In this document: in pieces, positions 623 through 14,581 of the stretch
Numbering within the stretch: the first letter of the stretch is position 1
How the letters are laid out: every line of letters begins with the position of its first letter
Source: Cellulosilyticum lentocellum DSM 5427
GTDB taxonomy: Bacteria; Bacillota; Clostridia; Lachnospirales; Cellulosilyticaceae
DNA: 64,000 nucleotides
Direction: 5' to 3'
Assembly: GCF_000178835.2 (NCBI RefSeq)
Contig: NC_015275.1
Location: 2,067,001 to 2,131,000 of the forward strand
The notes under the pieces: generated by a model
What the model was told of the DNA's origin: nothing
The model's input: the letters and a program-made list of their open reading frames with translations, nothing else
The model's database searches: none
Program-made: the position numbers and the translations under genes

Positions 623-982
623 TTGAAAGCTATTTCAAAAACAGAAGTTTTCGAGCAAGAATTAGAAAAGTTGATTGAGATATTCAAAGATGTAGAAGAA
701 AGTAAGCAAAAGCTTGTTCAAGGACTATTACAAGAAACAGCTTACTTGAAATCTGAATTATTTGTGATGCATCAGGTGTTAGATGAAGTTGGTATGATAA
801 AGGTACACCCTACAGATAAAACTAAGCAGAAAACTTTACCTATAGCTAACGAATATCGAAGAACAGCTAATATTTATGCTTTAAACATAAAAACACTGAA
901 TGGCATACTTGGTAAAGACACAATGGAGGGAGAAGATCCATTCGATAAGTGGCTACAAGAAAAGATGAGTAAAGATGAGTAA
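623..982 (+). CDS. phage terminase small subunit (P27-like)
   Basis: A 119-residue, helix-rich, charged protein directly before the large terminase; its last 8 bases overlap that gene. Position, size and the C-terminal pattern (PIANEYRRTANIY, then an acidic tail) fit P27-family small terminases, which recognise the packaging site and load the large subunit. I chose the TTG at 623 because GAGGTG ends 6 bases upstream. An in-frame TTG at 566 with an AAGG upstream would add 19 residues. The family call is mainly contextual. Confidence 0.7.
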   Translation: MKAISKTEVFEQELEKLIEIFKDVEESKQKLVQGLLQETAYLKSELFVMHQVLDEVGMIKVHPTDKTKQKTLPIANEYRRTANIYALNIKTLNGILGKDTMEGEDPFDKWLQEKMSKDE

Positions 983-2693
983 TAAATTTATAGGTTATAA
1001 ACCAAGTAGATATGATTTATCTAATAGTAAGATAGATGGTAAGCATTCATATTTATTAGAGTACTATAACAAGGCATTAGCTATTGATGATGAAGTCATA
1101 ATAGGTGAAGAACTTAAGAAGTGTCTAAGTAATTTAATAGATGACTTAGATAATCAGAACTATTACTATGATTGTTCTGATGCAGAATTAAGAATAGAGT
1201 TTATTGAAACATTCATCAAGCATACAAAAAGTCCTTTTAATGGCAAACCTTTTATTTTAGAACTTTGGGAAAAAGCAGTAATAGAAGCTTTTTATTCGTT
1301 TAAGAGAAGTAAAAATGGACTCAGAAGGTTTAAAAAGCTGATATTATTGGTTGCTAGAAAGAATGGAAAGAGTACTTTTTGTGCAGCGCTTTGTTTTACT
1401 GAATTTATGATAGGTAATGCAGGTTCTGATATTATTTGCTCATCAAATGATGATGCGCAAGCAAATTTAATATTTGAGGAAATAGCAAGTATGAAAGAGA
1501 TGTTTGATCCTAAGGATAAGCGTACACACAAGAATCTAAAAGGCATCTTTAACCTTAGAAATAAATCAACTATAAAAAAGCTTTCAGACAAGACAAGAAA
1601 TAAAGAAGGTAGAAATATTGAGTTTGCAATATTAGATGAAAGTCATGAAATGAAAGACAATGTTATAGCAAAGTCGATAGAGCAGTCACAGTCAATTAAA
1701 GATGAACCTATTTTTATTAATATAACGACAGAAGGATTTGTTGATGATGGGTATCTAGACAAAGAATTGAAATATGCTAGAGAAGTTTTAAGAGGTGACA
1801 GAGAAGATGATACACTTCTGGCATGGCTTTATACAATGGACAATGAAATCGAGGTATATCAAGACGAATTGTCATGGAAAAAGGCTAATCCGTCACTAGG
1901 AACAGTTAAGAAATGGGATTACTTACGTGATCAACTTAGAAAGGCACAAGCAGACAAGGCAGAAAGAGTATTCACCCTCTCTAAAGACTTCAATTTCAAA
2001 CAGAATAATGCTGAAGCATGGCTTATGGAGAAAGACATAGAGAATAGCTTAACATATGACATAGAAGATTTTAGAGGATGTATAGGGATAGGAGCTACTG
2101 ACTTATCAGAAACTACAGACCTAACAAGTGCTAAGGTTTTAATTATGAGACCAAAAGATAAGACAAAATATTTCTTGCAGCACTACTTCATATGCGAAAC
2201 CAAAGTAGATGAGGGAAGTAATGAAGATAAAAAGAATTATTTAGAGTGGGCAAAACAAGGATACATTACAATATGTCCTGGTAATGAGGTAGATTACAGT
2301 GAGATTGTAGCTTGGTATGTAAGTCTTTATAAAAAATATCAAATATGGGTATTCAAAGTAGGTTATGATAGATGGAATGCTAAGTCTTATGTTAAAGAAA
2401 TGGAGGACTATGGATTTGATAATGAAAAAATACCACAAGATTATAAAAATATGAGCACAGCCATGAAAATGTTAGAAGCAGATTTAAAGAGTGGATGCGT
2501 GAATTACAATCAAAATCCTATTGATAAGTGGTGTTTAAAAAACACAGCTTGTAAGGTAGATCAATATGGTCAGATAATGCCAATGAAAGTACAGGGTATA
2601 GAGAATAAACGTATAGATGGTGCAGTAACAATGATTATTGCATATGCCACATACGATAGATTTAGAAAAGAGTATCAAGATGTTATGAGATAA
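975..2693 (+). CDS. phage terminase large subunit
   Basis: A 572-residue DNA-packaging motor. The ATPase domain has a Walker A-like LVARKNGKST near residue 127 and a Walker B ILDESHEM near residue 218. A C-terminal nuclease-like domain carries the conserved acidic block GATDLSETTDLTS near residue 375. Length and motif order match Terminase_1 (HK97/P27-associated) proteins. The start overlaps the small subunit by 8 bases, indicating translational coupling. It cleaves concatemeric DNA and pumps it through the portal. Confidence 0.95.
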   Translation: MSNKFIGYKPSRYDLSNSKIDGKHSYLLEYYNKALAIDDEVIIGEELKKCLSNLIDDLDNQNYYYDCSDAELRIEFIETFIKHTKSPFNGKPFILELWEKAVIEAFYSFKRSKNGLRRFKKLILLVARKNGKSTFCAALCFTEFMIGNAGSDIICSSNDDAQANLIFEEIASMKEMFDPKDKRTHKNLKGIFNLRNKSTIKKLSDKTRNKEGRNIEFAILDESHEMKDNVIAKSIEQSQSIKDEPIFINITTEGFVDDGYLDKELKYAREVLRGDREDDTLLAWLYTMDNEIEVYQDELSWKKANPSLGTVKKWDYLRDQLRKAQADKAERVFTLSKDFNFKQNNAEAWLMEKDIENSLTYDIEDFRGCIGIGATDLSETTDLTSAKVLIMRPKDKTKYFLQHYFICETKVDEGSNEDKKNYLEWAKQGYITICPGNEVDYSEIVAWYVSLYKKYQIWVFKVGYDRWNAKSYVKEMEDYGFDNEKIPQDYKNMSTAMKMLEADLKSGCVNYNQNPIDKWCLKNTACKVDQYGQIMPMKVQGIENKRIDGAVTMIIAYATYDRFRKEYQDVMR

Positions 2694-2704
2694 GGAGGTG
2701 GAAC

Positions 2705-3946
2705 GTGGGAATATTAGATTTTCTAAGAGGGCAAAGTGAAAAAAGTGTATTAAAAAGATATGCACAAATGATGAATGGATATTCTCCAGTGTTTAGTCAG
2801 TTTGGAGATGATATATATGCTAGTGATATAGTTCAAAATGCAATAAGAGCATTAATGACAGAGATGAGTAAACTAGATCCTAAGCATATACGAAATGGAG
2901 ATGATAATTCACAGTCTATTGTTAATAGTAGTATTAACAGGCTTTTGAAATATGGGCCTAATCCACTTATGACTACATCTGATTTTCTTGAAAAAATCAC
3001 ATATCTTAGAGAAATGAAGAAGAATGTTTTTATTTATCCTACATATAGAGAAATACCAATTAAAGGTGGATTTGTTAGGCGGGAATATACCGGATTATAT
3101 CCATTAAATCCTATTCAGGTAGATTTTCTAGAAGATGCTGCAGGTATACTATTCATAAAGTTTTATTTTAACAATGGAGAAGATTATACACTAAAGTATT
3201 CAGATATTATTCATTGGAGAAAAGATTTTGGAGCAAATGAATTTATGGGTGGTGATGAAACTGGAAAAGCCAATAATAATGCATTGCTAAAGCTATTAAA
3301 GACAAATGATGTGGTTATCCAAAGTTTAGAAAAAGGAATAAAGGCAGGGTTAACAATCAGAGGTATTTTAAAAATACAGACCATGCTAGCTGATGGAAAG
3401 CAAAAAGAAGAAAGAGAAAAATTTGAGAAGAAACTTAATGAAGCAAGTAGTGGTATTTTAGAAATAGACTTAAAAAATGATTTTATACCACTAAACTTAA
3501 ATCCTAAAATAATTGATAAAGATACCATGGAATTTATAGATAAGAAGATTCTTAATAATTATGGTGTATCAATAGCAATCATTAATGGTGATTTTACAGA
3601 GGAGCAGTATCAATCTTTTTATGAAAAGACACTAGAACCTATGATAAAGAGTTTAGGAAGAGCATTTTCAAAAACGCTATTTACGGATAGAGAGCTTGAT
3701 GTGGGTAATGAAATAATATTTTATGCTCAAGGGTTAGTATTTACCAATATGGCAAACAAGATCGCCGCTGTAGATGTTTTAAGTAGTAGAGGCACTCTAA
3801 CAGATAATCAAATATTGTCTATATTTGGATATCCACCATTTCCAGGTGGTGATATTAGGCATATGTCACTTAATTTTATTAATCGTGAAATAGCTGACCA
3901 GTATCAGATGAGTAGCAAAGTGAAGGAAGTGAAAAAAAATGAATAA
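2705..3946 (+). CDS. HK97-family portal protein
   Basis: A 413-residue protein starting at GTG with AAGGAGGTG just upstream. It contains typical HK97 portal features: an N-terminal region ending in a YTGLYPLNP-type segment, an IIHWRKDF motif, and a C-terminal stem/crown with DNQILSIFGYPPFPGG. It forms the dodecameric DNA channel at one capsid vertex, docking terminase during packaging and the connectors afterwards. It sits between terL and the protease and overlaps the protease start by 8 bases. Confidence 0.93.
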   Translation: MGILDFLRGQSEKSVLKRYAQMMNGYSPVFSQFGDDIYASDIVQNAIRALMTEMSKLDPKHIRNGDDNSQSIVNSSINRLLKYGPNPLMTTSDFLEKITYLREMKKNVFIYPTYREIPIKGGFVRREYTGLYPLNPIQVDFLEDAAGILFIKFYFNNGEDYTLKYSDIIHWRKDFGANEFMGGDETGKANNNALLKLLKTNDVVIQSLEKGIKAGLTIRGILKIQTMLADGKQKEEREKFEKKLNEASSGILEIDLKNDFIPLNLNPKIIDKDTMEFIDKKILNNYGVSIAIINGDFTEEQYQSFYEKTLEPMIKSLGRAFSKTLFTDRELDVGNEIIFYAQGLVFTNMANKIAAVDVLSSRGTLTDNQILSIFGYPPFPGGDIRHMSLNFINREIADQYQMSSKVKEVKKNE

Positions 3947-4538
3947 AAACTTTAAGAGTGAATGTAGAATGGTTGAGTTTAGAGCTATAGATAATGATGA
4001 TGGGAAGATGATTATTGAGGGTTACGCTATTACATTTGACCAACCTGCAACACATAGCATGGGAAACTATACTTTTACAGAGACAATCAAACGAGGTGCA
4101 CTAGATAGAACAGATATGAAAGATGTACCACTAAGATACAATCATAATGACACATGGTGTATCATGGCAAGGACAAGAAATAACAGCTTAAAGCTTGTTA
4201 TAGATGATATTGGACTTAAAATTACAGCGGAATTAATAGATACACAAAGTAACAGAGACATCTATAAATCAATTCAAGAAGGGTTGATTGATAAGATGTC
4301 TTTTGCTTTTACTGTAGCTGATAAAGGTGATACTTGGCAATATGGAGAAACTGAAACAACTAGAATAGTTACAGATATTAATAAACTTTATGACGTTAGC
4401 GTGGTGGATACCCCGTTTTACGATACAACAAGTGTTTATGCAAGGAGCTTTGAACTACTGGAGAGTAATTTAAAGCAGCTGGATAGCTTTGACTTGGAGA
4501 AACGCAAGTTACAAATGAAATACCATTATTCAAATTAA
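3939..4538 (+). CDS. HK97-family prohead protease
   Basis: A 199-residue serine protease of the herpesvirus-assemblin-like fold. Visible hallmarks are EGYAITFD near the N-terminus, the PLRYNHND block supplying the catalytic histidine, and DKMSFAFTV, where the serine is the expected nucleophile. It digests the capsid delta domain/scaffold during prohead maturation. It overlaps the portal gene by 8 bases and is followed 22 bases later by the capsid gene behind an AAAGGAGTG ribosome site. Confidence 0.92.
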   Translation: MNKNFKSECRMVEFRAIDNDDGKMIIEGYAITFDQPATHSMGNYTFTETIKRGALDRTDMKDVPLRYNHNDTWCIMARTRNNSLKLVIDDIGLKITAELIDTQSNRDIYKSIQEGLIDKMSFAFTVADKGDTWQYGETETTRIVTDINKLYDVSVVDTPFYDTTSVYARSFELLESNLKQLDSFDLEKRKLQMKYHYSN

Positions 4539-4560
4539 AAAAAGAAAAGGAGTGTAGGAT

Positions 4561-5784
4561 ATGACACTACAACAAAAATTAGAAGCAGCTTTAGAAAAAA
4601 GAAAGGCATTAGTAACAAGCATAACAAATGCAGAAACAAAGGAAGCGTTAGACAAGATTGAACTGGACTTAAGAAAAGCGGACATTGAGATTGCAGGACT
4701 AAAAGAAGCTATTGAAGAGGAGCAAAGATCAGCGCAAGGTAACCCAGAAGAAAGAGCAGCAGGTTCAAATTTATCACAAGGTCAATTTAACCCTATTTCA
4801 ACATATGGATTAACAACACAAAGAAGAAGTTCAGAAGAAGAACAGGAAGCAGAATACAGGAAAGCATTCATGGAATATACACTCAGAGGTACAGCTATTC
4901 CAACAGAATTAAGGGCAGCTACAGGAACCGCAGATATTGGGGTTGTTATTCCAAATACTGTAATGAATAAAATTATTGAGCAGCTAAAAACGTATGGTGA
5001 AATCTTTAGAAGAGTAACACTTACAAATATCAAAGGTGGAGTTACAATACCTATTGCATCAGCAAAACCAGTAGCAACATGGACAGCTGAAGGCACAGTT
5101 GCAGACAAGCAAAAGAAAGAAGTAAAAGGTACAGTAACATTTTCATACAATAAGCTACAATGCAGAGTAGCAGTTACATTAGAAGCTGATACAACTTCAT
5201 TAGCAATTTTTGAATCTACATTAACAGATAATGTATATGAAGCAATGATTATAGCTATTGAAGAAGCAATTGTAAATGGCACAGGAACATTACAGCCTTT
5301 AGGATTTACAAAAGATACAAGGGTACTAGCGTCACAAAAAGTTGAATTATCAGCAACAGATATTAAGAGCTGGGAAGCATGGTCTAAAGTTTTTGCAAAG
5401 GTTCCAAAATCTAAACGTGCAGGGGCAGTGGTTTTATTAAATACTGAAACATGGGAGGGTGACATTTTAGGAATGACAGATTCAACTGGTCAACCTATTG
5501 CACGTGTTACAGTAGGCCTTAATGGTGAAGATAAACCAATGTTCAAAGGTAAAGAAGTCATTGATGTTGAAAGCTATCTTCCATCATATGAAGCAGCAGA
5601 AGTAGGAGATGTATTTGGTGCAATCTTAAATCTTAAAGATTATATGCTGAACTCTAACTTAGCAATGACAGTAAAACGTTACTTTGATGAAGATACAGAT
5701 GAATGGATTACAAAATCAACCCTTATTGCTGATGGTAAGCTTGCAGATGCACAAGGAGTAATTTTACTAGTAAAAAAAGCTTAA
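4561..5784 (+). CDS. HK97-family major capsid protein
   Basis: A 407-residue shell protein. Residues 1 to about 105 are charged, coiled-coil-like and rich in K/E, matching a delta/scaffolding domain removed by the neighbouring protease. The mature fold follows: the ELRAATGTADIGVVIP region, the GTGTLQPLGF loop and a C-terminal P-domain. The last codons read GTA AAA AAA GCT TAA, so a canonical A AAA AAA slippery heptamer (5772-5778) lies two codons before the stop. A -1 shift there would give a 465-residue form, described in the next entry. Confidence 0.95.
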   Translation: MTLQQKLEAALEKRKALVTSITNAETKEALDKIELDLRKADIEIAGLKEAIEEEQRSAQGNPEERAAGSNLSQGQFNPISTYGLTTQRRSSEEEQEAEYRKAFMEYTLRGTAIPTELRAATGTADIGVVIPNTVMNKIIEQLKTYGEIFRRVTLTNIKGGVTIPIASAKPVATWTAEGTVADKQKKEVKGTVTFSYNKLQCRVAVTLEADTTSLAIFESTLTDNVYEAMIIAIEEAIVNGTGTLQPLGFTKDTRVLASQKVELSATDIKSWEAWSKVFAKVPKSKRAGAVVLLNTETWEGDILGMTDSTGQPIARVTVGLNGEDKPMFKGKEVIDVESYLPSYEAAEVGDVFGAILNLKDYMLNSNLAMTVKRYFDEDTDEWITKSTLIADGKLADAQGVILLVKKA

Positions 5785-5957
5785 GCCAATCAGTAACGAG
5801 TTTCTCAATAGCTTCTGATACCTCTTTAGAAGCTATTGATTATAGCTCAATGACAGTTACTGAGTTAAAGGCTTTATGCAAAGAGAGAGGTTTAACTGGT
5901 TATTCCTCAATGACTAAGACTGAGCTTGTTTCTTTACTTAAGGAGAGTGATGCTTAA
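5778..5957 (+). CDS. HeH/SAP-like domain in the -1 frame, probable frameshift extension of the capsid protein
   Basis: The -1 frame relative to the capsid gene is open through the slippery site to a TAA at 5955-5957, adding 59 residues. The last 35 resemble a HeH/LEM or Rho-N/SAP helix-extension-helix domain: TVTELKALCKERGLTGYSSM followed by TKTELVSLL. The first in-frame ATG (5850) has no Shine-Dalgarno sequence, so independent initiation looks poor, and a structured RNA element begins 11 bases after the slip site. Similar short domains occur after capsid genes in related phages as separate ORFs. The frameshift is inferred, not proven. Confidence 0.6.
   Translation, partial: SLSQSVTSFSIASDTSLEAIDYSSMTVTELKALCKERGLTGYSSMTKTELVSLLKESDA
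5790..5863 (+). promoter_or_regulatory. nested RNA hairpins downstream of capsid slippery site
   Basis: An 8-bp outer stem (5790-5797 TCAGTAAC with 5856-5863 GTTACTGA) encloses a perfect 11-bp inner stem (5806-5816 CAATAGCTTCT with 5828-5838). The structure lies inside the -1 reading frame, starts 11 bases after the A AAA AAA heptamer and has no following U-run. It therefore looks like a frameshift stimulator rather than a terminator. Confidence 0.6.
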
Positions 5958-6205
5958 TGCTAGAAGCTATCAAAGTACATTTAGGAATAGTAGCAGATGA
6001 TGAGGATGTAAACAAAAATATAACTTTAAAAATAGAAGTTGTAAAAAGTTATCTTAAAGAGGCTGGCGCAAAAATTGAAGAAGAGGATAATCAGTTAATA
6101 GGTTGTGTTGCTATAGGTGTGAATGATTTATTAAATAATACATATGGTAAAACTGAATTTTCTCCAGCTTTTTTTATTTTAGCAAGGCAATTATGTAGGG
6201 GGTGA
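5957..6205 (+). CDS. phage head-tail connector (gp6-like)
   Basis: An 82-residue, mainly helical protein (MLEAIKVHLGIVADDEDVN..., ending SPAFFILARQLCRG). This matches the first connector ring protein that attaches to the portal in HK97-like phages. Its ATG shares one base with the stop of the HeH segment (TAATG), so translation is probably coupled to the upstream frame, which supports that segment being translated. Function is inferred from position and length. Confidence 0.75.
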   Translation: MLEAIKVHLGIVADDEDVNKNITLKIEVVKSYLKEAGAKIEEEDNQLIGCVAIGVNDLLNNTYGKTEFSPAFFILARQLCRG

Positions 6206-6209
6206 TTAT

Positions 6210-6518
6210 TTGAGGTTAATTACTCCTATTTATTTTGCAAGTAAGACTTATTCAACTGATGAAGCAGGAGATCAAGTTATTGAAGAAAAGTTAAGAAAAG
6301 TTTTATCTAATAAAAAGTCTGTAGGTACAAATGAATTTTATCAAGCTCATACAGCAGGAATGAAGCCTGAATTCAAAATTGAGGTAAGAAAATTTGACTA
6401 TAAAGGAGAAGATAAGGTTATTGTAGATAATGTTTCTTATAAAATCATAAGAACATATGATAATCAAAGTGGTTTCTTAGAATTAACATTAGAAGGTGAT
6501 GTACATGTCGGTTCCTAA
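6210..6518 (+). CDS. phage head closure protein (head-tail adaptor)
   Basis: A 102-residue beta-rich protein starting at TTG behind TAGGGGGTG. The pattern 'SKTYSTDEAGDQVIEEK' then 'VIVDNVSYKIIRTY' and a short hydrophobic end (GFLELTLEG) matches SPP1 gp16/HK97 gp7-type closure proteins that seal the portal after packaging. It overlaps the next gene, as in most head-tail modules. Confidence 0.75.
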   Translation: MRLITPIYFASKTYSTDEAGDQVIEEKLRKVLSNKKSVGTNEFYQAHTAGMKPEFKIEVRKFDYKGEDKVIVDNVSYKIIRTYDNQSGFLELTLEGDVHVGS

Positions 6519-6951
6519 ATCTGTAGTAAAAATCAAAAGGGATGGAATTGAGTACATTTCAAGCGTGGACTATACGCAATATACGATTAAAGAGCTTATA
6601 AGAGCAGCTTTAAGAGATTGTGGCAAGTTATACTGCAATAGGTTTAGGCAAGCTTATTATAGAATATTTAAACGTAAAAAGGGGCGTGTAGGAAAGTATA
6701 CTGGCTATTGGGTAAGAAGTAAGAAAGATGTTCCTGATTTGCTTGTAGGTATAAAAAAGAATGCTTTTTATGGCGGATTCCAAGAGTTTGGAAGTAGTAA
6801 AACTACACGTTTGGGGCTCATGATTGGTACTGCACAAGATAACATAAGTAATTTTGCAGATATTCAAGCGCAGTATTTAGGAGCATTAAACCAAGATGAT
6901 CCTAATGTACCAGCTAATGAGGAAGAGTATGAAGGAGGTGCTGACGATTGA
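6505..6951 (+). CDS. HK97 gp10-like tail-completion protein
   Basis: A 148-residue basic protein. I chose the ATG at 6505 because AGAAGG lies 8 bases upstream; earlier in-frame starts lie in the overlap. Features are a K/R-rich middle (RIFKRKKGRVGKYTGYWVRSKK), then 'FYGGFQEFGSSKT', the loop typical of gp10-like neck proteins, and an acidic tail. It probably joins the tail terminator to the head closure ring. Confidence 0.75.
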   Translation: MSVPKSVVKIKRDGIEYISSVDYTQYTIKELIRAALRDCGKLYCNRFRQAYYRIFKRKKGRVGKYTGYWVRSKKDVPDLLVGIKKNAFYGGFQEFGSSKTTRLGLMIGTAQDNISNFADIQAQYLGALNQDDPNVPANEEEYEGGADD

Positions 6952-7328
6952 GTATACTAACTAAAATTAATCGTACAAATGAGCTAAAGATAGCATTAAC
7001 AAGCATTTTAAAGCAAGTACATAGTAAAGCATATTATCGTAAAGCACCTGCTAAAACAGACTATCCTTATCTAACATATTATCTAAGGCATACCAAAGAT
7101 GGTCATCAATATGATTACTTTTGGGAAGTACATGTTTGGACTAGAGATATTAAGCTTGCTGAAGAACTGGCTGATAATATAGAAGGGTTTGATAAATGCT
7201 CTTATAAGGATTATTACCAAACTTTTGATATTGATTTAGAAAGTAGAAATAACGTGGAAGATGAAGACAAGGAGATACAACACATAGTACTCCTATTTAA
7301 TTTAACTTATTTTGATGTGAAAGGATGA
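6948..7328 (+). CDS. tail terminator / minor tail protein (DUF3168-like)
   Basis: A 126-residue protein starting at TTG with GAAGGAGGTG just upstream, 4 bases inside the previous gene. The 'YPYLTYYLRHT' and 'YFWEVHVWTRD' blocks and the final hydrophobic strand fit the family of tail-terminator proteins that cap the tail tube. It sits between the gp10-like gene and the tail tube gene, the usual place. Confidence 0.7.
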   Translation: MSILTKINRTNELKIALTSILKQVHSKAYYRKAPAKTDYPYLTYYLRHTKDGHQYDYFWEVHVWTRDIKLAEELADNIEGFDKCSYKDYYQTFDIDLESRNNVEDEDKEIQHIVLLFNLTYFDVKG

Positions 7329-7335
7329 TAAAGAG

Positions 7336-7956
7336 ATGGGATTAAAGAAAAGATTAACAGGTTATACAGAAAAAACAATGGAAAACAGACAGATGGGTGC
7401 TGGTGCATACTTCAAAAACTATGATGTAGAAACAGATAACTTTACAGATGCGGTAACAGCAGGAAAGTTACTTGGCGCAACACAAGGAGGAGGAAATTTT
7501 TCAGCTAAGCCTATCATCACAACTACTGAAGTAGATGGAGTGCCTTCTGATGCAAAAGGTATGGAAGATATTGATGGTTGGGACGTCAACATGAGTGCAA
7601 ATATTTTAGAAATCACCGCTGAAAATATTAAAATTGCACTGGGTGCAGCAACAGTAGCAACTACTACAGATGGTAAGTATAAAAAAATCACAGGTAAATC
7701 GAACATTGATCCAGCAGATTATCAAGATAATATTACATTCCTTGGTACCATGTCTGGGTTTGATGAACCTATTATTTTACAAATCTATAATGCACTTGCT
7801 ACTGAAGGAATTAATATCAATCCTCAAGATAAGAAAACAACATTACTTCCTACAAAATTCAAAGCACATGCCTCTTTTGATAAATTAGATGAACCACCAT
7901 TTGCAATTTTTGTACCAATTAAAGCAGGAAGTAGTGAAAGTGGGAGTGGTGAATAA
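7336..7956 (+). CDS. major tail tube protein
   Basis: A 206-residue protein. It has an N-terminal GAGAYFKNYDVETDNF segment, a GATQGGGNFSAKP loop, and a central 'VDGVPSDAKGMEDIDGWDVNMSANILEI' type domain found in tube proteins of Firmicute siphophages. It polymerises into the tail tube. The stop overlaps the chaperone start (TAATG), giving coupling. The C-terminus is Gly/Ser-rich. Confidence 0.87.
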   Translation: MGLKKRLTGYTEKTMENRQMGAGAYFKNYDVETDNFTDAVTAGKLLGATQGGGNFSAKPIITTTEVDGVPSDAKGMEDIDGWDVNMSANILEITAENIKIALGAATVATTTDGKYKKITGKSNIDPADYQDNITFLGTMSGFDEPIILQIYNALATEGININPQDKKTTLLPTKFKAHASFDKLDEPPFAIFVPIKAGSSESGSGE

Positions 7957-12221: not shown

Positions 12222-14234
12222 ATGTTTACTTATCACTTGAAAGCACGCAGGTTAGATTTAAAAACAGTTGTATGGGATTTAAGTGCACTAGATTTCTTTA
12301 ATAATGTAACAAATAGGCTTGTATCATATACTCTTGGTGATTCATATGTTTATTGGGATGCTACTATGGGTTACAACGATAGTGTCAAATATGAGTACAT
12401 AAAATACAGGAATGCAGCAGGTAACATTGTAACAGTAGGGCAAGGCGAAAGTGTTGTAACGTATAACCATACACTTGATGGTCGTGTCGGCCTAGCTACT
12501 TTACCAAGTGGATATAATCCTCTTAATTTATTATCTCAAAATAAAAGTGATCCATATTTAGAGATAAGGTTTGCAGACTGGCACGAAATAAGAGAGCAGG
12601 AGACTACCTTTAATAATAATTTAGGGCAAGGAACGCATTTAGAGCTATCTGTAGAATATAAGGAAATAGCTATTAGTAATTTTGAAGTAACCAGAGATCA
12701 TGCAAATGAAAGATACATGATAAAAGTAAAAGCCAACTACCTTGAAAAATATACAGTAGAAGTAATAAATGTAAATGAACTAGAAGGCAATAAGACAGCT
12801 ATTACCTTAACATCTTTAGAAGAAATATCATATATCCCAGAAAAATACTTTAAAGAAGGTAGCAATATCTTAAATGTTACAGCCTATAACGGAACAAAAA
12901 CAGCCTTTAGAACGCTTACAATAAGCCACATTACCCCAACTTTGACTGAGGTTTCAATCGAAAATGAAAATGGATTAATTGACAACATAACAACAGTAAC
13001 TTGGACAAGCAAGAACCAAGGTAAAGCTGAAATATACAACAATGATAAGTTAATTAAGTCAGTGGGGACAGTTACGGTTGCAGTTTTACCAAAAGGAACA
13101 CTAAACGTAGGCAAAAATAAAATAGAGGTAAGAGTATATAACGTTGGAGATAGCAATGTTATTAATAGCATTGTTAGTGTGTCAAAGGTTAGTACTATTA
13201 CACTAGCTAGGATATTACCATCTATAGAAAAGAATAGTTTTTCAATCAATGATACAAATACGGACAACGTTATCACAGCTGCCTGGAAATCTACAAATCA
13301 AAGTAGGTTTGGAATTTATCAAGGGGATAGATTAATTAGCACAGGAGTAAGTGGACAAACAGTAGATATAGCCAGGGGTACATTAAGCATAGGAAGTACT
13401 AACCTAAAACTAGTAATTTACTACGATAGTGGCTTTGACACCGTTCAAGTAGAAGAAGTTATAGCAACTGTATTAACCCAAAATACTCCTATAATATACA
13501 ATCTAGAACCTAGCAACCTTAACATTAATATAGATGAAATTGTCAATGTTACTTTTGCAACAAATGAATTTTGTGATAGTTGGGAACTAACAGCAGCAGG
13601 ATTAAATACTAAGGGAACTGATGCGAGAAGTGTAAGCTTTGGTAAAGAAGTATTTAAGCAAGGCAAAAACGAAATGACATTAAAAATATTCTATAGTCCT
13701 AAGTATAACAATGAGATTCGCACAGCTACTAAGAAGGTAACATTTACAGGTTATGGAACCCCTAAAACTCCTATATTTGATGGTAATGTTTTATATTCCA
13801 CAGCTACACCACAATTAACATGGGAATCAATAGATCAAGTAGAAATACATCTGCTTATTGTTGAAGCAGAATCAGAAGAGGTTGTTCAAGAAAAGCTAGA
13901 ATTTACAGAAGATAAGTTTGCCACGTTAGAGACATTAGAGGATGATAAGACATACATTGCTACATTAGCTGTTAAAAATAAGTATGGCCTATGGAGTGAA
14001 TATGCAAAAAAGGAATTTCAAACAAAATTCAATGACATTATTCTTCCTACATTTGATTTATTTGAAGCTGAGACAAGTGTATTCATAACAATAGGTGGAA
14101 TACAAGATCCTAATTTTAAGGCTATAAGTATTTACAGAAAGAGTGAAAGAGAAGATGTGTGGACTGAAATAGCTGATGATTGTAATATCGAAGACACTAT
14201 TAGAGATTATATGTGTCCAGCAAATTTAAAATAG
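12222..14234 (+). CDS. large distal-tail (Dit-like) protein, first frame segment
   Basis: 670 residues in this frame. After an N-terminal domain come tandem beta-sandwich repeats containing 'TVTWTSKNQGKAEIYNNDKL', 'VITAAWKSTNQSRFGIYQGD' and later a fibronectin-like 'PQLTWESIDQVEIHLLIVEA'. These look like Ig/FN3-type modules that decorate phage tails. The frame ends at TAG (14232-14234) immediately after a perfect T TTA AAA heptamer (14225-14231). A -1 shift continues into the next segment as LKIAYKLRVYDKN, which completes the last FN3 strand. Either programmed frameshifting or a one-base deletion explains this. Confidence 0.75.
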   Translation: MFTYHLKARRLDLKTVVWDLSALDFFNNVTNRLVSYTLGDSYVYWDATMGYNDSVKYEYIKYRNAAGNIVTVGQGESVVTYNHTLDGRVGLATLPSGYNPLNLLSQNKSDPYLEIRFADWHEIREQETTFNNNLGQGTHLELSVEYKEIAISNFEVTRDHANERYMIKVKANYLEKYTVEVINVNELEGNKTAITLTSLEEISYIPEKYFKEGSNILNVTAYNGTKTAFRTLTISHITPTLTEVSIENENGLIDNITTVTWTSKNQGKAEIYNNDKLIKSVGTVTVAVLPKGTLNVGKNKIEVRVYNVGDSNVINSIVSVSKVSTITLARILPSIEKNSFSINDTNTDNVITAAWKSTNQSRFGIYQGDRLISTGVSGQTVDIARGTLSIGSTNLKLVIYYDSGFDTVQVEEVIATVLTQNTPIIYNLEPSNLNINIDEIVNVTFATNEFCDSWELTAAGLNTKGTDARSVSFGKEVFKQGKNEMTLKIFYSPKYNNEIRTATKKVTFTGYGTPKTPIFDGNVLYSTATPQLTWESIDQVEIHLLIVEAESEEVVQEKLEFTEDKFATLETLEDDKTYIATLAVKNKYGLWSEYAKKEFQTKFNDIILPTFDLFEAETSVFITIGGIQDPNFKAISIYRKSEREDVWTEIADDCNIEDTIRDYMCPANLK

Positions 14235-14581
14235 CTTATAAACTTAGGGTGTACGACAAAAATAATGCATACAAAGACACAGAAATAAAAACTATATCTA
14301 TTAGTTTAAGCAGCTACATTTTAACTAATCTAGAGAACGCAGAAGATGTATATATGATTTTTGGCACACCTAGTTATAAGTTCAATGGTGATTTTGTAAG
14401 TAAGCTGTATGCAGGGCAAAGAGCTCCTAGGACATTTAAAGGAAAAGTACAATATAAAACAGGAACCTTCAGAACAGCATTAAAAAATGCAGATGCATAC
14501 AATCTAATAGACTTTATAGAGAATAGTAACGAGTATAATTTATTCTGTTTAAGAGACCAACGAGGAGAAAATTATATGTAA
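14213..14581 (+). CDS. distal-tail protein, second frame segment
   Basis: This frame is -1 relative to the upstream segment. It continues the last FN3 strand (FKIAYKLRVYDKNNAYKD) and then enters a new domain (ISLSSYILTNLENAEDVYM). The GTG at 14213 lacks a ribosome site, so this is better read as a continuation than a separate gene. It ends at 14581 after DQRGENYM. The -1 frame carries on with KLYVIAKLESQDPKG, so a second frame break follows near 14567-14575. Confidence 0.6.
   Translation: MSSKFKIAYKLRVYDKNNAYKDTEIKTISISLSSYILTNLENAEDVYMIFGTPSYKFNGDFVSKLYAGQRAPRTFKGKVQYKTGTFRTALKNADAYNLIDFIENSNEYNLFCLRDQRGENYM

Follow-up and report, generated by a model that had tools for sequence, protein, structure and literature searches.

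Does the major capsid protein gene of this clostridial prophage end where its stop codon stands, or is a part of its products extended by a second, overlapping frame? The gene lies in the 64-kb stretch of DNA analyzed here, termed the window, within a standard head module at 975-7956 that comprises terminase, portal, protease, capsid, probable connectors, and tail tube. Its product matches the Pfam family PF05065 with an E-value of 1.6e-27, and its 3′ end reads GTA AAA AAA GCT TAA. From the sequence, programmed −1 frameshifting at A_AAA_AAA, together with a nested hairpin that is probably a pseudoknot, is highly likely; by this route, a minority of the capsid subunits would carry a C-terminal linker and a SAP/HeH domain. 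A −1 frameshift had been proposed in an earlier, sequence-only reading of the same DNA. It is supported by the register of the slip site, the open frame, an RNA structure beyond coding constraint, the absence of start codons with ribosome sites, and the recurrence of the arrangement in a distant relative (locus L038). The features of the locus are collected in Table 1.

Table 1. Features at the end of the capsid gene, in window coordinates.
Feature	Position	Strand	Remark
Major capsid protein gene, HK97-type family (PF05065)	4561..5784	+	407 aa zero-frame product
Slippery heptamer A_AAA_AAA	5772..5778	+	zero-frame register X_XXY_YYZ; one codon (GCT) 5′ of the capsid stop
−1 frame extension: linker and, from about 5850, SAP/HeH domain	5778..5957	+	59 codons plus stop
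Outer helix, 5′ arm	5790..5797	+	8 bp, perfect; pairs with 5856-5863
Apical loop ACCUCU(UU)	5820..5827	+	able to pair with 5884-5891, probable pseudoknot
Inner helix, 5′ arm	5805..5818	+	14 bp, one G.U; pairs with 5826-5839
Inner helix, 3′ arm	5826..5839	+	pairs with 5805-5818
Outer helix, 3′ arm	5856..5863	+	pairs with 5790-5797
3′ partner of the apical loop, AGAGAGGU	5884..5891	+	within K-E-R-G codons
Next gene, probable head-tail connector	5957..6205	+	weak Pfam connector matches, below cut-off

Putative slip site, open −1 frame, and encoded domain

The canonical heptamer named in the sequence-only reading is present at its place and in register, and the zero-frame C terminus lies close to the end point of the capsids of its relatives. 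The heptamer alone is not rare in the AT-rich window. Among the 53 ORFs of at least 150 aa on both strands, seven (the capsid gene included) have a heptamer within their last 11 codons and inside an open −1 frame, and five of these seven, again including the capsid gene, have at least 25 further open −1 codons. What stands out is the combination with the domain, the structure, and the relatives. The −1 frame is open between AGC (5778) and a TAA at 5955-5957, which overlaps the ATG (5957) of the next gene; the length of 59 codons and the overlapping stop, both described before, are seen in the sequence. The ribosome site (AAGGAG) of the next gene sits in the end of the extension.

In the −1 peptide, a SAP/Rho_N (helix-extension-helix) domain comes after a linker of roughly 20 residues. 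Pfam matches are obtained for SAP (PF02037; E 3e-10, 39.9 bits at a cut-off of 23.9) and Rho_N (E 8.6e-9, 35.7 bits at a cut-off of 24.9), and HeH/LEM (PF12949) is absent among the matches at E ≤ 0.5. Hence, where a HeH/LEM or SAP-like domain had been suggested, the SAP part holds above the Pfam cut-off but the HeH part does not, and the added domain appears closest to SAP/Rho_N. AlphaFold models a helix-extension-helix at residues 21-60 with a mean pLDDT of 87-93 by block, preceded by a linker without secondary structure and of low confidence (pLDDT 58 and 56). The best Foldseek matches of this model are the SAP domains of Tho1 (E 0.6-0.8, probability 0.98 and 0.90), with none of 30 matches at E ≤ 0.001. 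By sequence, the closest solved structure is the C-terminal part (residues 86-125) of the Mu-like gp35 (FluMu HI1507, PDB 2out; E 0.0012), which is, unlike the tail described here, a separate protein, and whose gene presumably adjoins a head gene in Mu. The added domain does not have an Ig-like fold; by Pfam and AlphaFold, its fold is helical and of the SAP type.

The domain might instead be a separate small protein that starts at the ATG at 5850, either by internal initiation or by coupling to the capsid stop. The folded domain begins at this ATG, and stand-alone SAP/HeH genes directly after the capsid gene occur in other phages. However, no start codon with a ribosome site is found in the −1 frame of the capsid-tail region: the pairing with the anti-SD sequence amounts to −1.3 kcal/mol for the ATG at 5850 and −2.7 kcal/mol for the ATG at 5910, weaker than for the 17 presumed genes of the same phage (−2.9 to −17.6 kcal/mol), which agrees with the earlier statement that the internal ATGs lack a ribosome site. 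The ATG at 5850 is further located 65 bases past the stop and within structured RNA. This position is occupied by a methionine inside coding sequence in 10 of 11 aligned tails (by leucine in L120), and the methionine is, therefore, taken as a residue of the domain. Since a separate protein would also leave the heptamer and the structure unexplained, it is considered unlikely.

Elsewhere in the window, a 670-aa ORF (12222-14234) ends in AAT TTA AAA TAG, with T_TTA_AAA at 14225-14231. The next ORF (14213-14581) is in the −1 frame; among the 17 genes, the ribosome site at its GTG start (14213) is the weakest (−2.9 kcal/mol). The two products, searched apart, have no PHROG match at E ≤ 0.01; the pair is possibly a second −1 shift or a split gene.

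Downstream RNA structure and a proposed route to a long capsid form

Bases 5772-5880 are computed to fold with −38 kcal/mol as compared with −18.9 kcal/mol in dinucleotide shuffles (z −5.83), and none of 200 shuffles is equally stable. Two helices are nested herein, of which the outer one begins 11 bases past the heptamer. The stems reported before are thus retained for the outer 8 bp and the spacing, but the inner helix has 14 bp with one G.U instead of a perfect 11. The pairing of the apical loop with a 3′ stretch, absent from the sequence-only reading, would form a pseudoknot, and the stimulator is probably of this type. A 3′ structure is present at a suitable distance from the heptamer; the stimulation itself is predicted. 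In a synonymous control, the codons of the −1 frame were randomized with the peptide kept. Out of 2000 such recodings, none folds as stably, four have a loop pairing as good (an optimistic count, since the loop and the 3′ regions were picked after the helix was seen), and none has both. All synonymous controls described in this article take their codon usage from the window, so that the nulls are biased for GC-rich loci (for example, L089 and L122).

In the mechanism proposed here, most ribosomes would terminate at 5784 and release the 407-residue capsid protein. Some ribosomes, paused by the folded RNA, would slip from AAA AAA to −1 and extend the protein by the SAP/HeH tail. The 10B protein of T7 and the long head protein of A2 are analogues for a minority long capsid form. 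Following these (PMC5009743, in the part consulted), the long form would enter the shell as a minority, with the tail on the outside. The occurrence and rate of the shifting, the presence of the long form in the head, the position of the domain outside at the capsomers, and its binding to nucleic acid or protein are what we infer from the locus; nucleic acid, as for SAP domains, or protein are the natural guesses for the partner of the tail.

RNA polymerase is known to slip on A runs of such kind, and transcripts that lose or gain bases would yield the same fusion without ribosomal frameshifting. The window has a run of seven A and the related loci L026 and L036 of nine. Yet polymerase slippage needs no downstream structure, and the one in the window is exceptional. 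Moreover, the A_AAA_AAG site of the related locus L150 has only six A, and the HeH tails of the Listeria phages A118 and A500 are located behind G_GGA_AAC, with no long A run. Slippage of the polymerase is, hence, very improbable, and ribosomal frameshifting remains the preferred reading.

A distant relative and two capsid families

The viral contig IMGVR_UViG_3300001598_000243 (L038) carries a capsid that matches PF05065, like that of the window, but is 24% identical to it over 246 residues. Its capsid gene ends in GTA AAA AAA GCA TAA GCC, and a SAP/HeH domain is found by Pfam in the −1 frame. The two tails are 62% identical. The two loci agree at 115 of 177 aligned bases from the heptamer through to where the domain ends, compared with 17 of the 32 columns 5′ of the heptamer. 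Both loci share the heptamer, the GTAAAAAAAGCNTAAGCC context, the inner hairpin, the loop pairing, and the SAP/HeH domain. The simplest reading is that the slip site, the stimulator, and the domain moved together as one cassette. Scanning viral contigs for the pattern GTAAAAAAAGCNTAAGCC returned three stretches, namely from the phage of the window, the L038 contig, and L127; the last one, without a SAP/HeH match, was taken as chance.

From the 14 inner pairs of the window, eight are kept in L038 (three of them by changes on both sides), three are gapped, and three, at the loop end, are unpaired; the inner helix of L038 itself has 13 pairs. The six-pair core of the loop pairing is identical in both and shows no covariation between the two; the L038 pairing is longer, with 10 pairs. 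The computed optimum fold of L038 is other than the nested fold. Among 2000 synonymous recodings of L038, 25 have a fold, 13 a loop pairing, and one both as good. The covariation rests on two sequences, since L038 is the only other locus with the same heptamer plus SAP/HeH. Conservation of the signal in related phages, put forward earlier as a check, is therefore seen in this one relative: the heptamer, the inner hairpin, and the domain are kept, but the outer helix, 8 bp in both, lies in a different register. The substitutions between the two loci give a dN of 0.49 and a dS of 0.51 for the linker, and 0.25 and 2.3, respectively, for the domain. As the linker is without purifying selection in this comparison, the substitutions do not prove coding 5′ of the ATG at 5850.

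Relatives of the window capsid (family A, L003-L036 and L056-L058, with L003 standing for the window) and of the L038 capsid (family B, L149-L228) were analyzed separately. Loci without a capsid match or stop, loci with fewer than 200 bases past the stop, and duplicates (identical C-terminal 250 residues) were dropped, which left 32 and 57 distinct capsid genes. An in-frame heptamer in the last 11 codons was compared with the presence of at least 25 open −1 codons. In family A, the extension is found in 4/4 genes with the heptamer versus 6/28 without (Fisher p 0.006), and in family B in 2/2 versus 0/55 (Fisher p 0.0006), that is, in 6/6 versus 6/83 for both families. The relatives are not independent for these tests; L026 and L036 are close, such that the 4/4 of family A correspond to about three independent cases. 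As for the extended genes without a heptamer, the extension is the next gene in L029, L031, and L033, with its ATG at or just past the stop, and a HeH gene at TAATG in L034; the extensions of L022 and L030 are both short.

The pieces appended in the genes with a heptamer vary: SAP/HeH in the window and L038, CBM_X2 in L026 and L036, and the SbsC C-terminal domain in L150. A 27-codon −1 piece in L035 has no Pfam match. Both L026 and L036 are prophages in a single genome (G008) of the host family, with the A9 run before TAG; the −1 tail of L026 matches CBM_X2 with an E-value of 1.1e-10. Their RNA contains an 8-bp helix around an 11-bp helix, with a GC-rich loop pairing. Out of 2000 synonymous recodings each, the fold is reached by one and none, the loop pairing by 18 and 16, and both by none. 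Their tails differ with a dN of 0.10 and a dS of 0.64. The low divergence in the stems (1/82 positions, as compared with 44/197 beyond the stems) was rejected as a sign of RNA constraint, since a recombination boundary fits equally well; the capsid genes, too, have just eight differences over their last 300 bases. The same genome harbors a third capsid, with a +1 SAP/HeH tail (L053). In L150 of family B (around 3715-4030), A_AAA_AAG is located before TAA and followed by the −1 SbsC C-terminal (S-layer) domain (E 7.2e-16). Its RNA forms hairpins plus a loop pairing, and 40, 60, and 0 of 2000 synonymous recodings reach the fold, the loop pairing, and both, respectively.

A recent indel that split an in-frame capsid-SAP fusion, or an accidental overlap, has a negligible probability: Ig-like phage appendages do exist in-frame and out-of-frame (PMC5009743, in the part consulted), but the zero-frame capsid ends near the ends of its relatives and is complete relative to them, which makes decay unlikely, the arrangement recurs in L038 on a distant capsid, and the fold surpasses the coding-constrained controls.

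SAP/HeH domains behind other capsids

Coat-gene frameshifting is described for Listeria phages in a paragraph on Ig-like extensions, as −1 in A118 and A500 and as +1 with a pseudoknot in PSA (PMC5009743, in the part consulted). In all three phages, the coat genes have SAP/HeH tails in the shifted frame; it is behind the tail gene that A118 and A500 have their annotated Ig-like domain. The capsid genes of A118 and A500 end in GCG GGA AAC TAA, with a G_GGA_AAC heptamer and a subsequent GGCGCG/CGCGCC stem, and their −1 frame is the annotated HeH/LEM ORF (45 bits for the HeH of A118 at a Pfam cut-off of 28.9). They resemble the window in the −1 site at the last sense codons of cps, the stem just 3′ of it, and the HeH domain in the −1 frame that ends before the head-tail connector genes. 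In contrast to the window, they use G_GGA_AAC rather than A_AAA_AAA, a separate gene is annotated for their HeH ORF, which has an ATG at TAATG, and their head module contains a scaffolding gene.

For the cps gene of PSA, the annotation gives ribosomal slippage, and Pfam identifies the +1 tail as a SAP domain (E 1.8e-6, above cut-off; HeH below cut-off). Cps-L hence resembles the candidate long form described here by a SAP domain appended to the major capsid protein by recoding. According to the consulted part of PMC5009743, PSA has a stimulatory pseudoknot, like the probable one of the window, but the shift is +1 and takes place at a proline codon, CCC, upstream of the stop. The likeness to PSA that had been noted earlier is substantive, as the PSA tail itself is SAP and A118 and A500 have HeH in the −1 frame; the window shares their arrangement, a SAP/HeH domain encoded out of frame right behind the major capsid gene. 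In the two records of the one phage LP-030-2, the PSA-type tail is called SAP domain protein, so annotators had already noticed the SAP domain itself. In Lactobacillus phage A2, T3, and T7 (gp10A/10B), frameshifting yields a minor capsid form that has an additional C-terminal domain; this domain is Ig-like in A2 and T3 and another tail in T7 (PMC5009743, same part), whereas that of the window is of the SAP type. A whole-word search of a paper collection returned no match joining phage capsid frameshift with HeH or SAP domain and none for HeH LEM domain with phage capsid.

A search with a profile of the tail turned up such domains in numerous viral contigs and genomes, frequently directly 3′ of a large ORF and, judged by reading the lists rather than by counting, mostly as separate ORFs. 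The seven upstream ORFs tested (L039, L040, L089, L122, L120, L059, and L054) are all major head proteins by PHROGs (top families 10, 267, 544, and 247), and four match PF05065. Three annotated phages, inspected among 93 matching records, have a separate SAP/HeH gene directly after the capsid gene: Staphylococcus 52A, Streptococcus Javan226, and Sulfurimonas SNW-1. In Javan226, it starts at TAATG with GGAGG upstream. The sequence-only reading had named HeH ORFs elsewhere with their own ribosome site as a point against frameshifting. In part, this is what other phages show, with stand-alone SAP/HeH genes behind the capsid gene, some of which begin at its stop (L034 and Javan226), but the window locus lacks such a start.

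Shifted-frame arrangements of several kinds were encountered. A +1 SAP/HeH tail follows capsid genes that end in CCC TAA or CCC TAG in L039 and L040 (the latter identical to L053 and L091), and these ends resemble the proline slip sites of the Listeria phages. A −1 SAP/Rho_N ORF follows three different capsid genes (L034, L089, and L122) with the identical end GCG GGG GAA TAA, of which only L034 has an ATG at the capsid stop. The −1 tails of L139 and L136 follow GTG GGG GAG TAG and GTG GGG TAA, respectively. L139 is a second prophage of the same genome as the window (near 933494-934318); its Rho_N-type domain reaches 25.0 bits at a cut-off of 24.9, and none of 500 synonymous recodings has a downstream structure as stable. 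Its relative L148, in another genome of the family, has no such −1 extension and a G run one base shorter; L146 and L147, the latter incomplete, were left out. The tail of L136 has no match in Pfam at E ≤ 0.01; its assignment rests on alignment and inspection by eye. In the G-run group, the P-site glycine tRNA could re-pair in the −1 frame on G_GGG_GAR, or else translation may begin anew, at an unusual codon or, in L034, at its ATG.

Synonymous-codon recodings (500 each) were applied to 13 loci, and at most 10/500 recodings as stable were regarded as excess structure. Such an excess is found for A118, A500, PSA, L034, L089, L139, L136, the window, and L038, but not for L122 (43/500), L039 (217/500), L040 (319/500), and L120 (423/500); no stimulator is claimed for the +1 loci L039 and L040. 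Two loci were rejected as frameshift cases. In L059, a GTG with GGAAG upstream overlaps the stop, though the RNA folds strongly (0/200 shuffles), and L120 has an ATG with an SD-like stretch (by eye) and no stable fold.

We lean toward regarding SAP/HeH as a second general class of recoding-expressed capsid appendages beside the Ig-like one, expressed by −1 or +1 shifts at several sites (A_AAA_AAA, G_GGA_AAC, the G_GGG_GAR-stop context, CCC-stop, and ACA_CCC) and in several capsid families; in the window and L038, it would be one moving cassette with its own slip site and pseudoknot. Listeria phage capsids that gain SAP/HeH by frameshifting are already a known kind, such that the generalization is the possible news. 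The clostridial prophage would join these few phages in which a fraction of the capsid proteins gains SAP/HeH in this way. The comparison suggests that the SAP/HeH module next to the capsid is what is conserved, whereas the route of its translation (separate start, −1, or +1) varies, which lets one ask what a partial SAP/HeH decoration does. The candidate cassette of slip site and pseudoknot is found on two distant capsids, and relatives carry other domains at the same position.

The SAP/HeH tail is also matched by the PHROG families 390 and 1539, which are labeled Arc-like repressor. The 52A protein with this label directly follows the head gene, and the label, hence, looks misleading for such genes.
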